From assembly GCA_937919625.1 (NCBI GenBank), contig CALFRK010000133.1, forward strand, positions 1 to 33,722: a DNA stretch of 33,722 bases, written 5' to 3'. This DNA comes from an uncultured Ilumatobacter sp. Its GTDB lineage: Bacteria > Actinomycetota > Acidimicrobiia > Acidimicrobiales > Ilumatobacteraceae. Within the stretch, counting starts at the first letter, position 1; each line of letters opens with the position of its first letter. The position numbers were made by a program, and so were the translations under genes. Below, piece after piece: positions 1-33,722 of the stretch. A model generated the notes under the pieces. The model was not told where the DNA came from. It searched no databases and was given only the letters and a program-made list of their open reading frames with translations.

Positions 1-70
1 CAAACTTCACCCCAACAAACTTCACCCCAACAAACTTCACCCCAACAAACTTCACCCCAACAAACTTCAC
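1..70. repeat. 15-bp tandem array at the window start
   Basis: The unit CAAACTTCACCCCAA is repeated four times without error and a fifth copy is cut after 10 bases. The array begins at base 1, so its true length is unknown. It ends directly before the ribosome-binding site of the thiolase gene. It may be a real intergenic microsatellite, an assembly loop at a contig end, or both. Confidence 0.95.
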
Positions 71-30582: not shown

Positions 30583-32430
30583 CTAGCCGCGGCGAAGCAG
30601 CGCTGCCGGGTTGAACTCGTCGGCGAGCATGCCAGCAACCCAATATTCGGCGGGGATCTTGAACGGCAGTCCCCATCCGGGGGCTGGCCAGCTGCCCAAT
30701 CCGCCAGGTCCGTGCGGTTCGACCGGCGCCCAGACACAATCTTCGGGGGCCAGAATCAGTGCTGATCGGCCGTAGGCGGTGACTGTGCCGTTGGAGTGCA
30801 GGGTCCAGCCGCCGTTGACGATCGCGGACACATTGGCGGTGCCGCGTTCGGCTCTGCTAACGCCGACGAGTCGTGGGTCGGCGGGCACCGACCACGGACC
30901 GATGGCGACGTGGCATGCCTGGTGTTGCTGAGCTGCGCTGACGAGGGTGTCGGCGTCGAGCATGCTGCCGTCGGGTGCCAAGATGGTGAGCCGTAGATGG
31001 GGCCAGATGTTGCCGTCGCCGATGCCGCGGAACTCGTCGGATGGCATCGGGTCGGTGTCACCCATGTAGCCGAGGATCTGGCCGGCGAACACAGGCGTGC
31101 CTGGCTGCCCGAGCGCAGTGAACCGGAAGGAGTGGTGGGCGGCGCCGTCGTCGGTGCCCGGCGAGTCATCGTTGAACCCGGCGTAGTGGTAGGTGCGGCC
31201 GATCGCGTCGACCAATGTGATGCTGACCTCGCCAGTGACCGGGTTGTCGTATTCGATTGCCGTGACGACCCCGTCTGCGACAGCCAGGATCGGTTGCAGC
31301 GTTTGGCCGAAAACGATCGCCGACGTGCCGCCTCCGCAGTCGGCGGCGTCGCACGGAGTTGGCGGGGCAACGACGGCCCGGCCGAGCACGGGGAAGGCGA
31401 TCTCGACGAGTGGCTCGCGTTCGACATCGATGTCTGGTGGTAGACCAGCGAGGAAGCGAAGTTCGGGCGGCACGGCTGTCAACCGGTGCAGTACCGGCTC
31501 GCCGGTGACGAATGCCAACATGTCGAGCCACCGGTACTGGTATTCGCGAACCGTAAGACGGTTGCCGGCCGACGGCAGCGGAACTTCATCCATCAGGGCC
31601 GGGATCAGGGCGGCGCGCGGAAAATACCAGATCACCGGCACCATTGAGACGTCGCCTCGCCATTGTTCGAGGATCGCGCGCACGTCGAGCAACGCCCTTT
31701 CGTCCTGGACCTCTGGTGGCGCCAGATAGGCGTGCGGGTAGCCGCCGTAGTTGTTCCAGGTAGAGGCGATGTATTGATAGGCGCCCGACGCGTTGCCCTT
31801 GTTCGGTGTGAGGTAGTAGCGCTCGCTCGACTCCATCAGGCGGATTGTGCGGAGGATGTCACCGATGTCTTTAGGAACGGTGATGCCGAGTGCTGTCGGC
31901 GCAGTTTGCGGCCCGGCCGGAACCGTGGTTGTCGTGTTGGGTACCGAGCTGGTGGTCGTGGTGGGGCACGGCGGCAGGGTGGTCGTGGTTGTGGTCGTGG
32001 TGCTGGTGGTGCTGGTGGTGCTACCGGGAAGCGTCGTGGTCGTGGTCGTGGTCGTGGTGCTGGTCGTGGTCGTGGTGCTGGTGGTGGTGCCGGGAAGCGT
32101 TGTGGTTGTGGTCGTGGTGGTGCTGGTCGTCGTTGTTGGCGGGGCACACGGCATCGTGGTCGAGGGAGCGCTCGTTGTGGTGCTGCTCGTTGTGGTGCTG
32201 GTCGAGGTCGCAGCTGTACTCGTCGTCTCGGGAACCGAGGTAGTGGTGGTGCTGGTCGTTGTGGTGCTGGTCGAACTCGTGGTGCTGGTGGCCGAAGGGG
32301 GCGAGCTCGTGCTGCTCGATGACGTTGTGCTGGCCGATTCGGTTCCGGCGAACGCGATCGTGCCAGACACGGTGAGAGCGCCCGCCAGCATCAAGATGAC
32401 GGCGCCAGGAAGAGATCGCAGGTTGTACAT
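30583..32430 (-). CDS. Secreted protein with Thr-rich linker, transglycosylase-like and degenerate M23 domains
   Basis: Protein of 615 residues. A signal peptide (1-28, cut near AFAG) is followed by an extreme Thr/Ser linker (about 30-178) built from runs of Thr broken by LPG or LPP and a few Cys. Next comes a lysozyme/transglycosylase-like domain (about 186-270) with Glu200 in RLMESSERY as the likely catalytic acid and GNASGAYQYIASTW. Residues about 375-487 look like an M23/LytM domain (ILAVADGVVTAIEYDN, GQILGYMG) but the final HxH is HLR (478-480) and the first His is absent, so it is probably a binding module. The tail has several Cys. Role: cell-wall binding or remodelling. No clear ribosome site or -10 box was found. 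Confidence 0.87.
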   Translation of the reverse strand: MYNLRSLPGAVILMLAGALTVSGTIAFAGTESASTTSSSSTSSPPSATSTTSSTSTTTTSTTTTSVPETTSTAATSTSTTTSSTTTSAPSTTMPCAPPTTTTSTTTTTTTTLPGTTTSTTTTTSTTTTTTTTTLPGSTTSTTSTTTTTTTTLPPCPTTTTSSVPNTTTTVPAGPQTAPTALGITVPKDIGDILRTIRLMESSERYYLTPNKGNASGAYQYIASTWNNYGGYPHAYLAPPEVQDERALLDVRAILEQWRGDVSMVPVIWYFPRAALIPALMDEVPLPSAGNRLTVREYQYRWLDMLAFVTGEPVLHRLTAVPPELRFLAGLPPDIDVEREPLVEIAFPVLGRAVVAPPTPCDAADCGGGTSAIVFGQTLQPILAVADGVVTAIEYDNPVTGEVSITLVDAIGRTYHYAGFNDDSPGTDDGAAHHSFRFTALGQPGTPVFAGQILGYMGDTDPMPSDEFRGIGDGNIWPHLRLTILAPDGSMLDADTLVSAAQQHQACHVAIGPWSVPADPRLVGVSRAERGTANVSAIVNGGWTLHSNGTVTAYGRSALILAPEDCVWAPVEPHGPGGLGSWPAPGWGLPFKIPAEYWVAGMLADEFNPAALLRRG

Positions 32431-32515
32431 GGTGGTTAGCGGTATCCGAATGGTCTGGCCACGCTACCGTGCCTGGCGGTAGCAGGCAGGGCGTCCGGCG
32501 CTAGCGGCGCGCCGG

Positions 32516-32521
32516 TAACGT
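32516..32521 (+). promoter_or_regulatory. Candidate -10 box upstream of the mini-ORF ladder
   Basis: TAACGT fits TANNNT. Transcription from it would begin near 32528, about 15 bases before the first mini-ORF at 32543, so all four mini-ORFs would be on the kinase mRNA. TACCGT at 32465-32470 is an alternative further up. No clear -35 box. Confidence 0.35.
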
Positions 32522-32542
32522 GCGACAAGATTAGTGGTCGGG

Positions 32543-32612
32543 ATGACCAATTGCCGGTGAGCAACAAGAGATGAGCAATTCGAGATGATCAATTCGAAAT
32601 GAGCAATCCGGA
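32543..32612 (+). repeat. Five 14-bp units forming a start-stop ladder of mini-ORFs before the ROK kinase
   Basis: Five imperfect 14-bp units start at 32543, 32557, 32571, 32585 and 32599; all share TGA at unit positions 2-4 and CAA at 6-8. Units 1-4 each encode a start codon, four more codons and TGA: MTNCR (32543-32560), (GTG)SNKR (32557-32574), MSNSR (32571-32588) and MINSK (32585-32602). Each TGA overlaps the next start by four bases as RTGA. The last overlap is with the ATG of the kinase gene at 32599. The layout predicts stepwise coupled re-initiation, or at least a leader that loads ribosomes at the kinase start. Confidence 0.85.
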
Positions 32613-33528
32613 TGCTCAGCGCGATGTGATCCTGGCGATCGACATCGGCGGCACGAAGTTCGCCTCGGGGCTGATGACGATTCGTGGCGAGCTGCTCGAC
32701 CGATCGAGGATCGACGTCGAGCGTGATGTTGGCCCGCAATCGCACTTCGCTGCGCTGGCGACCATCGTCAGTGAGCAATTGGAACAGGCGAGGGCGCAGC
32801 ACGCGGTCCGGGTGCGGGCGATCGGCATCGGATGCGCTGGGCCGATCACCCGCAACTGCGAGACCGTGTCGCCTGTCAACATTTCGTCATGGCGATCCTT
32901 CCCATTGCGCCAACACCTTCACGATCTGACTGGTCTTCCGGTGTTCGGTGACCTCGATGCCAAGGCGCTGGCGCTGTCGGAAGGGTGGCTCGGGGCAGGT
33001 CGCAACGTGTCGAGCTTCTGTGCGATGACCGTGTCGACGGGCGTCGGTGGCGGGTTCGTGATCGACGGTGAGCTGCTCGATGGTGCGACAGGCAACGCCG
33101 GGCACGTCGGACATATCATCGTCGAGCCGGGCGGCCGTCGGTGTGGTTGCGGGGCGCGCGGCTGCCTCGAAGCTGAGGCGTCTGGGCTGGCAATCGAGGC
33201 GATCACCGGGCGCTCACCAACCGAGCCGACCTACGACATCATGCGTCGTACCGGGCGGCTGGTAGGCAGGGCAGCCGGGATGATCTGTACGGCGATGGAT
33301 CTCGATCTCGTCGTTGTCGGCGGTGGTGTGGCGCTGGGCTTCGCGGCGACGTTCTTCAATGCCGCTCAGGAAGAGATCGACGCTGTCGCCCGGGTCGGCC
33401 AGGGCGCTGCGGCGCGAATCACGCCGGTTCGTTTGGGTGATCGTGGTCCTTTGATCGGCGCCGGTGCAGTTGGCCTGCGGGGCCTGCGGCGATCTGGCCG
33501 GCACGCCGCTACGACTCGGATCCTGTAG
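32599..33528 (+). CDS. ROK-family sugar kinase (glucokinase-like)
   Basis: Protein of 309 residues with no N-terminal DNA-binding domain, so a kinase and not a ROK repressor. DIGGTK (15-20) binds ATP phosphate; the catalytic Asp is Asp118 or Asp120 in FGDLDAKA; GNAGHVGH (165-172) holds the zinc and sugar ligand His169; CGCGARGCLE (182-191) supplies the zinc cysteines Cys182, Cys184 and Cys189. It probably phosphorylates glucose or an N-acetylated amino sugar. The ATG at 32599 is the last rung of a series of overlapping mini-ORFs, and its first codons (MSN) copy the repeat unit. The 3' end overlaps a convergent gene by 20 bases. Confidence 0.93.
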   Translation: MSNPDAQRDVILAIDIGGTKFASGLMTIRGELLDRSRIDVERDVGPQSHFAALATIVSEQLEQARAQHAVRVRAIGIGCAGPITRNCETVSPVNISSWRSFPLRQHLHDLTGLPVFGDLDAKALALSEGWLGAGRNVSSFCAMTVSTGVGGGFVIDGELLDGATGNAGHVGHIIVEPGGRRCGCGARGCLEAEASGLAIEAITGRSPTEPTYDIMRRTGRLVGRAAGMICTAMDLDLVVVGGGVALGFAATFFNAAQEEIDAVARVGQGAAARITPVRLGDRGPLIGAGAVGLRGLRRSGRHAATTRIL

Positions 33529-33722
33529 CGAGTGCTTCAACCTTTGCCAGACCGTCCGACATGGCCGGGTGATCCCGAGTTGTGTAGACACGGATCATCC
33601 GCTCAGCGTGTTCGGTGGTTCCAGCGGTTATCAAACCGGTGATCCGCAGCGGCGCACCATGTTCGGTGGAGTGCTCTGATTGGTGGGGAGTGCTCTGATT
33701 GGTGGGGAGTGCTCTGATTGGT
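33509..33722 (-). CDS. 3' end of an unidentified gene, cut by the window edge
   Basis: On the minus strand a frame is open from the window edge to a TAG at 33511-33509, giving about 70 residues that end in KVEALATGSES. The part from 33509 to about 33660 reads like normal protein (PLRITGLITAG, then EHAERMIRVYTTRDHPAM). The first 17 or so codons are made from the 19-bp array at the window edge and may not be genuine. I do not recognise the family. It is convergent with the ROK kinase gene and overlaps its last 20 bases, including both stop codons. Confidence 0.6.
   Translation of the reverse strand, partial: PIRALPTNQSTPHQSEHSTEHGAPLRITGLITAGTTEHAERMIRVYTTRDHPAMSDGLAKVEALATGSES
33671..33722. 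repeat. 19-bp tandem array at the window end
   Basis: GTGCTCTGATTGGTGGGGA occurs twice in full and a third copy is cut by the window edge after 14 bases. Like the array at base 1 it coincides with the sequence end and may be an assembly effect. Confidence 0.9.

Follow-up and report, generated by a model that had tools for sequence, protein, structure and literature searches.

The described systems closest to the element treated here are the MIRUs of mycobacteria, which we take to be one homologous sequence family, together with overlapping gene pairs and the SD-driven bicistronic designs. MIRUs are portrayed in excerpts of PMC12548453 as mobile repetitive sequences that supply a mini-ORF at a start codon, coupled at −4 nt, and that are presumed to preserve expression of the gene in spite of the inserted unit. 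According to the same excerpts, coupling works best over spacings of −4 to +3 nt and, exceptions aside, weakens as the distance grows; its mechanism is not firmly established, reinitiation and RNA unfolding both being still debated. Gene pairs of the ATGA and TGATG types are treated in PMC6728339, whose main text, in the portion available, lacks the word 'tandem', and an excerpt of PMC11260477 describes the uPPE2-PPE2 pair of Mycobacterium, where an out-of-frame uORF hands ribosomes via AUGA to a gene without an SD. No description of tandem RTGA ladders was recognised in the open-licence literature searched.

Architecture of the ladder

The window, that is, the whole stretch of 33,722 nucleotides that was analysed, is contig CALFRK010000133.1 of an uncultured Ilumatobacter sp. 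(GCA_937919625.1). On its forward strand, RTGA is found at 32543 (ATGA), 32557 (GTGA), 32571, 32585 and 32599 (ATGA) with a spacing of exactly 14 nt, which gives four closed five-codon ORFs of 18 nt each with 4-nt overlaps. The fourth shares its ATGA with the start of a ROK-family kinase gene. An earlier note on this DNA had described the array in the same terms, as five 14-bp RTGA units making four 18-base ORFs with 4-base overlaps and the kinase ATG last, and that description is exact. The features are listed below.

32516..32521, + strand: −10-like box TAACGT (TANNNT), the probable kinase promoter, judged from congener boxes and the TANNNT peak in sampled genomes
32530..32542, + strand: degenerate unit 0 (ATTAGTGGTCGGG), start and stop lost, from by-eye comparison with congeners and units
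32534..32560, + strand: possible entry ORF from GTG 32534, VVGMTNCR then stop, frame and stop common with mini-ORF 1
32543..32560, + strand: mini-ORF 1, ATG to TGA, MTNCR then stop
32557..32574, + strand: mini-ORF 2, GTG to TGA, VSNKR then stop
32571..32588, + strand: mini-ORF 3, ATG to TGA, MSNSR then stop
32585..32602, + strand: mini-ORF 4, ATG to TGA, MINSK then stop, the stop lying in the overlap with the kinase start (ATGA)
32599..33528, + strand: ROK-family kinase, 309 aa, Pfam PF00480 (E 4.7e-51), N-terminus MSNPDAQRDVILAIDIGGTK

Position 32599 is the likely kinase start, because the N-terminus MSNPDAQRDVIL agrees with that of the congeners (MSTIDAQRDVIL in G008); a match at E <= 0.001 was obtained in 61/61 genomes searched. 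The window unit copies the opening codons of the kinase (MSN), which makes the array resemble a duplicated start region. The piece ATTAGTGGTCGGG at 32530-32542, absent from the earlier note, has to the eye the appearance of a degenerate sixth unit close behind the −10-like box, and it occupies the place of the congeners' start codon (by eye). Divergent to the kinase, on the minus strand at 30583-32430, lies a 615-aa ORF that has no Pfam match and carries a long stretch of repeats close to its N-terminus. Perfect tandem arrays form the two ends of the window (1-70, 15 bp x 4.7; 33668-33722, 19 bp x 2.9), as if the assembly broke in repeats. The assembly itself (G000, 4.10 Mb, 185 contigs) carries the kinase region twice (C133 and C61), identical over the 1,031 bases searched; the window sequence matches C61:5-33726, and C133 is as long as the window.

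In the alignment of the units, columns 2-4 (TGA) and 6-8 (CAA) are invariant and 8/14 columns vary (by eye), which confirms the invariance and the divergence reported before; the core TGANCAA is unchanged in 5/5 units. Only the better-matching part is caught by TRF (32568-32607, 2.9 copies, score 66). If bases were independent, a given fixed spacing would bring four RTGA together about 0.26-0.54 times in the 210 Mb of all 61 genomes, so the window array is not a chance assembly of motifs, and tandem duplication is what renders it likely. The earlier note had taken the retention of every start and stop as the real signal. On the window array alone this signal is weak: with 12 changes in the 5x14 alignment (hand count), the chance of sparing three given columns is ~0.055, and the CAA columns, which have no start or stop role, are spared as fully as TGA. 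The encoded peptides differ among the four units, and runs of a single codon are absent from the mini-ORFs. The computed fold of the leader is somewhat more stable than that of shuffled sequence (z −2.45, one fold computed).

The promoter-like box and possible entry into the ladder

Leaderless initiation requires a 5'-terminal start codon, and leaderless transcription is recognised by a sharp peak of TANNNT at 12-15 nt ahead of the starts. In contigs of four genomes (G000, G009, G021 and G029; 1.55 Mb), TANNNT peaks at this distance before called starts (155 per 717 operon-first genes, 89 per 628 others), against a background elsewhere of ~2 per position, and SD-like 4-mers precede 25% of operon-first and 33% of other genes; the sampled genomes of the order thus show much leaderless-type transcription. 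The peak before genes within presumed operons (89/628) suggests that leaderless transcription and internal promoters are widespread.

At the kinase locus, TARCGT precedes a start codon by 14-15 nt in 8/9 congeners (G001-G006, G008, G009) and was not seen by eye in G007. In seven of them this start is the kinase's own; in G004 it belongs to a mini-ORF. The window's box, TAACGT at 32516, predicts a transcript start at about 32528-32531. A single other TANNNT is present within 32430-32640, at 32465, and no SD-like 4-mer occurs in 32528-32599. The codon 14 nt after TAACGT is ATT (32530), which is followed by bases resembling a decayed unit and then by the ladder. The promoter-like box is present only upstream of the ladder, and because the array sits between this box and the gene, it should be transcribed. 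ORFs from ATT 32530, GTG 32534 or ATG 32543 all end on a ladder RTGA, that from ATT 32530 at 32572, so that the chain could be fed by more than one entry frame. One of the three frames from 32528 first meets TAG at 32532; hence not every frame is caught. The first ATG of the ladder would lie ~13 nt inside the predicted transcript, which is counted against the relay explanation set out below.

The array is absent from the congeners, and the ladder of the window is known from one genome only; judged by these comparisons, it is lineage-specific. That the congeners have the kinase start without the array, together with the window unit repeating kinase codons, fits a duplication in place. In G004, the box is followed by ATGACGGAGGCACG and ATGACGGAGG, a two-copy 14-bp duplication whose sequence is unlike the window units (by eye). 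Its first ATG lies 14 nt after TAGCGT, and the mini-ORF, encoding MTEAR, terminates on the kinase ATG (by eye). This duplication is an independent 14-bp ladder of two steps at this gene. The own genome contains a second array (C141:45975), which leads to a 276-aa ORF that Pfam does not match; the 5'-most unit of this array has lost RTGA. A further own-genome array of 11 bp and eight RTGA units lies at C166:61-141; in the piece examined, the caller placed no gene where this array ends.

Recurrence across the order

Arrays were searched with a pattern of four RTGA at a fixed period (RTGA-N10 x4 for period 14) and, as control, with the reversed pattern, whose counts were made by hand; the first sample comprised the own genome and 60 relatives, and the order sample 397 genomes. 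In the first sample, period 14 was found in 17/61 genomes (reversed control 6), period 11 in 11/61 (control 2), period 17 in 12/61 (control 3), period 13 in 9/61 (control 1), period 16 in 11/61 (control 8) and period 10 in 5/61 (control 3). Because the control is also exceeded at the unclosed periods 13, 16 and 10, part of the RTGA excess is unrelated to relays. Period 15 matched in 42/61 genomes, many of the matches being in-frame coding repeats.

Across the order, period 14 was present in 93/397 genomes against 44/397 for the reversed control (p 2.7e-6), and period 13 in 26/397 against 28/397 (p 0.66). The comparison of 93 with 26 of 397 (p 1.8e-11) ignores the general commonness of period 14, which among intergenic repeats is more frequent than any other period not divisible by 3 (7 vs 2 at period 13); the ratio test, 93:44 vs 26:28, allows for it (Fisher p 0.009). 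The search of other genomes proposed in the earlier note, for RTGA-N10 arrays that end on a CDS start, was thus rewarded: such arrays were found, the pattern occurring in 93/397 genomes and many of its matches ending on genes.

The units themselves are unrelated between loci. Spacer identity between 70 arrays is 0.290, vs 0.285 after shuffling; 11 array pairs reach at least 8/10 spacer identity where 2.3 are expected, and 8 of these lie within one locus or among TrkH orthologues. Outside its own locus, the window unit was met once among 381 loci, as a single copy. Two further arrays may be recorded here. One, in G190 (C1:443484-443655), consists of 14 RTGA units of GTGACTGACTGCCG and ends on a 99-codon ORF; the other, an 11-nt ladder in G016 (C72), leads into the gene of a GntR/FCD regulator, and the palindrome ACTGTATACAGT before the ladder may be the operator of that regulator.

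The genes behind the ladders, named from Pfam and sequence, are diverse, and the longest ladders before recognised genes carry 9 RTGA (L314, L317). Ladder ends and bridged pairs are as follows.

Period-14 ladder end: AA_kinase+PUA protein (ProB-like), 7 RTGA
Period-14 ladder end: chorismate synthase, 5 RTGA
Period-14 ladder end: GDPD protein, 9 RTGA
Period-14 ladder end: MurG-type glycosyltransferase, 5 RTGA
Period-14 ladder end: CoaE, 4 RTGA
Further period-14 ladder ends: Bac_luciferase, Epimerase, COX3, SQS_PSY, ABC ATPases and others
Bridged pairs, 14 nt, Pfam on both sides: FtsW to MurG-type; S1 to CoaE; ZnuA to ABC; sortase to ABC
Bridged pairs, 14 nt, Pfam on both sides: amine oxidase to SQS_PSY; luciferase-like to ABC
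Bridged pairs, 14 nt, Pfam on both sides: DEAD helicase to metallo-beta-lactamase fold; TrkH to TrkH
Bridged pairs, 17 nt, Pfam on both sides: Complex I 49 kDa to 2Fe-2S thioredoxin-like; nucleotidyl transferase to epimerase; CoA transferase to NMO
Bridged pair, 11 nt, Pfam on both sides: ScpB to pseudouridine synthase

In the pairs ZnuA to ABC, sortase to ABC and luciferase-like to ABC, the caller start is not at the last RTGA, and these pairs stand outside the nine strict bridges counted below. A Pfam match was obtained for 24/30 downstream ORFs scanned at period 14, leaving six without a match; at periods 11 and 17, 4/10 scanned downstream ORFs had none.

Phase at gene starts and junctions

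A repeat of period 2 mod 3 (11, 14, 17; phase 2) closes its reading on the next unit, one of period 1 mod 3 (10, 13, 16; phase 1) on every second unit, and one of period 0 mod 3 never. Raw ORF length was rejected as a sign of a gene start, random RTGA opening 60-codon ORFs in 39-52% of cases; by this rejected measure, ORFs of at least 60 codons lay on both sides in 13/40 arrays at period 14 (background 11%), 5/12 at 17, 3/12 at 11, 2/11 at 13 and 7/35 at 15. Since raw length is unreliable, Pfam was used together with a hexamer gene caller trained on the sampled genomes, a start being accepted within 3 nt of the last RTGA. Period 15 was left out of the phase test on account of many in-frame coding repeats such as GTGAGGTTGGCGCCG arrays, the 35 arrays classified being only a part.

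Among the first-sample arrays of periods 10, 11, 13, 14, 16 and 17, all of which were classified, 0/95 lay inside called genes. A called gene start was located at the last RTGA in 16/64 phase-2 vs 2/31 phase-1 arrays (Fisher one-sided p 0.025), and 9/64 vs 0/31 bridged a stop to a start (p 0.023); arrays at a stop only differed little (15/64 vs 6/31). For the remaining 48/64 phase-2 arrays, the caller put no gene start on the last unit. In the order sample, a Pfam-supported gene stood at the end of 11/23 period-14 vs 2/24 period-13 arrays among the matches listed (p 0.003). Because phase-1 periods close on every second unit (9-codon hops at period 13), last-but-one units were also counted, which raises period 13 to 4/24 among the matches listed (p 0.023 vs 11/23). 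The denominator of 23 derives from 30 period-14 arrays among the matches listed, 6 TrkH and 3 GCV_T-like arrays being collapsed to one each, with L302 and L320 excluded from the start count. That of 24 comes from 28 new period-13 loci, L095 and L096 being left out as already in the first sample, and here Pfam covered the longest ORFs only, namely the last-unit ORF of 5/24 arrays and the last-but-one ORF of 5/24. L051 and L175 (period 14) and L089 (period 13) were counted twice, in two registers. Both samples combined give 27/87 vs 4/55 (p 0.0005), or 6/55 with last-but-one units (p 0.004). One by one, the phase tests are modest.

The spacers of ladders at starts are no more diverged than those of other phase-2 arrays (median identity 0.80 vs 0.87, MWU p 0.43), so older, maintained ladders at starts find no support in this comparison. 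In an unbiased tandem-repeat scan of 1.55 Mb, intergenic repeats numbered 39, 22 and 25 for period mod 3 = 0, 1 and 2; coding repeats numbered 97, 2 and 1, indicating that the method sees selection. Start-spanning repeats (5, 0 and 1, the last being the window array) were too few, and the scan was dropped as a phase test.

Ordinary junctions were also surveyed. In 394 same-strand gene pairs with gaps of 5-120 nt, a relay reaches the called start exactly in 23, vs 16.8 (sd 1.8) in dinucleotide-shuffled gaps, of which 0/300 were as high; if the mini-ORFs are limited to 8 codons, a small excess is left (9 vs 7.0 shuffled, 4/300 as high). Where RTGA stands at both ends of a gap of 5-60 nt, the relay-closing phase is found in 11/19 pairs vs 61/217 other pairs (p 0.009).

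The TrkH–TrkH junction

The TrkH locus was picked for its ladder, and its orthologues were collected within the genus by protein search (496 aa), because a search by RTGA pattern would be biased. The downstream TrkH is present in 22/22 genomes, with the second TrkH gene just upstream, and the junction is readable in 21, the exception being G420, where the match sets in at residue 62 and no upstream motif was detected. Of the 21 readable junctions, 19 are spanned without a break by a relay of 1-4 mini-ORFs. These relays contain 38 mini-ORFs, 35 of 14 nt and three of 17 nt, without any unclosed spacing, and all relay junctions are RTGA except one TAATGA. In G070 the two genes overlap directly by GTGA, and in G119, where the script found no path, a direct TTGA overlap is seen by eye. 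The chain is thus closed in 21/21 readable species, 19 via mini-ORFs and two directly. Seven of the 22 genomes are themselves pattern matches; the other 14 readable ones are also closed, 12 by mini-ORFs and two directly. ATGA is constant in the 18 distinct units of 14 nt, and their spacers differ from the consensus at 24% of sites. At this junction, the number of units, the spacer sequence and even the unit length change, and the chain stays closed.

A proposed slippage-born relay and its alternatives

A slippage-born 14-bp expansion of the kinase start region that acts as a termination-reinitiation relay is regarded as the best explanation, with a probability of roughly 0.6. Replication slippage in this lineage would have produced 14-bp tandem copies of the kinase's own start region, and as this unit contains RTGA and recurs with a period of 2 mod 3, each added copy would close itself. 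A ribosome starting in the leader would end on the next RTGA, restart there and repeat this, walking the ladder step by step until the kinase ATG is reached in frame. Copies that break the reading would be lost from translated junctions and short leaders, where RTGA copies of period 2 mod 3 would be tolerated, so that the ladder would survive by keeping the gene translated, through selection against broken chains, and not by regulating it. Since coupling falls with distance in the excerpts cited above, the −4 overlaps would avoid that loss. Given the fold with z −2.45, mini-ORF translation may possibly also unfold the leader. The ribosome walk to the kinase, proposed in the earlier note, gains from ladders recurring at starts and junctions and from the TrkH chain closed in 21/21, evidence that lies mostly outside the window. 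Whether such relays make themselves more generally is a more tentative matter, possible rather than probable: period-2-mod-3 repeats would conduct ribosomes from more than one entry frame, unit number would become an evolvable dial on gene ratio, and phase alone would be needed, with no family, mobility or peptide.

The array might instead be a neutral microsatellite, a young slippage repeat of the leader whose unit brings starts and stops along at no cost, the kinase being initiated independently at 32599. Intergenic tandem repeats are indeed abundant in all phases (39, 22, 25), TGA retention alone has p ~0.055, and the spacer-divergence test is negative. The earlier note had named decayed units in relatives as the finding that would make the array neutral, and this came about only by half: congeners lack the array, and one decayed 5'-edge unit is seen in the window and in the second own-genome array. 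Against neutrality stand the phase bias at gene starts and junctions and the 19/21 TrkH junctions closed by mini-ORFs with diverged spacers and no unclosed spacing. Moreover, as neither an SD-like motif nor a nearby TANNNT precedes 32599, independent initiation of the kinase would have to proceed without a visible signal. We consider this reading unlikely, if by no means far-fetched.

A use of the repeat as such appears less plausible still. If each step passed only a fraction of the ribosomes, slippage could tune or phase-vary the kinase as a copy-number rheostat, to which the range of 1-4 units among TrkH orthologues, the ladders reaching 9 RTGA before recognised genes and the dependence of coupling efficiency on spacing and context (excerpts of PMC12548453) would lend themselves; none of the results, however, shows selection on number as opposed to closure, and the rheostat is held to be improbable. 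It is very improbable that the repeats act at the DNA level as regulator binding sites for the kinase or for the divergent gene at 30583-32430. They are direct repeats between divergent genes with TGANCAA invariant in 5/5, but they lie downstream of the predicted transcript start, are absent from the congeners, and have similar ladders elsewhere that carry unrelated sequences. A leader-peptide sensor, in which a ribosome on MSNSR-like peptides would sense an amino acid or a drug, as the earlier note had suggested, is scarcely credible: short peptides are encoded and the leader folds (z −2.45), but the peptides differ among the four units and among loci, no one-codon run is found in the mini-ORFs, and units show no cross-locus similarity (0.290 vs 0.285 shuffled), so that the suggestion stands unsupported.

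Significance and comparison with known systems

Whether a terminating ribosome can restart repeatedly, step by step, is a basic question of bacterial translation, for which nature offers ready-made substrates in the ladders of 1-8 mini-ORFs that precede recognised genes in dozens of contexts unrelated to one another. They would allow per-step efficiency, frame capture and the need for an SD to be measured directly, and they suggest a route by which non-coding repeats get tolerated, or used, at operon junctions. For gene finders, caution is advised over starts behind RTGA arrays.

With the ATGA and TGATG pairs (excerpts of PMC6728339 and PMC12548453), the ladder shares the 4-nt RTGA junction and the proposed hand-over of the ribosome, stop and start overlapping on one strand at all five window RTGA; the known cases in these excerpts link two genes in one step, whereas ladders chain mini-ORFs between them. 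The uPPE2-PPE2 pair resembles it in the AUGA hand-over from a short ORF to a gene without an SD, as proposed for the ladder, and differs, as far as the excerpt of PMC11260477 goes, in being a single uORF under a riboswitch, whereas the ladder is a chain. The bicistronic designs likewise use a short first cistron that 'delivers' the ribosome to the gene (excerpts of PMC12548453), but they are engineered and comprise one step. MIRUs come nearest, and the statement of the earlier note that no element of this form had been described is too strong, since a coupled mini-ORF placed at the start codon is already described for the MIRUs of mycobacteria. The likeness to MIRUs as excerpted in PMC12548453 is one of geometry only, the window and TrkH mini-ORFs sharing the coupled start-codon arrangement at −4 nt. 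In contrast to MIRUs, ladder units are unrelated between loci (0.290 vs 0.285; window unit once in 381 loci), so that they form no single homologous family; they measure 11-17 nt and seem to have arisen on the spot through tandem duplication. In its working the ladder would resemble a MIRU without one dispersed family, and it is filed as a variant of translational coupling.
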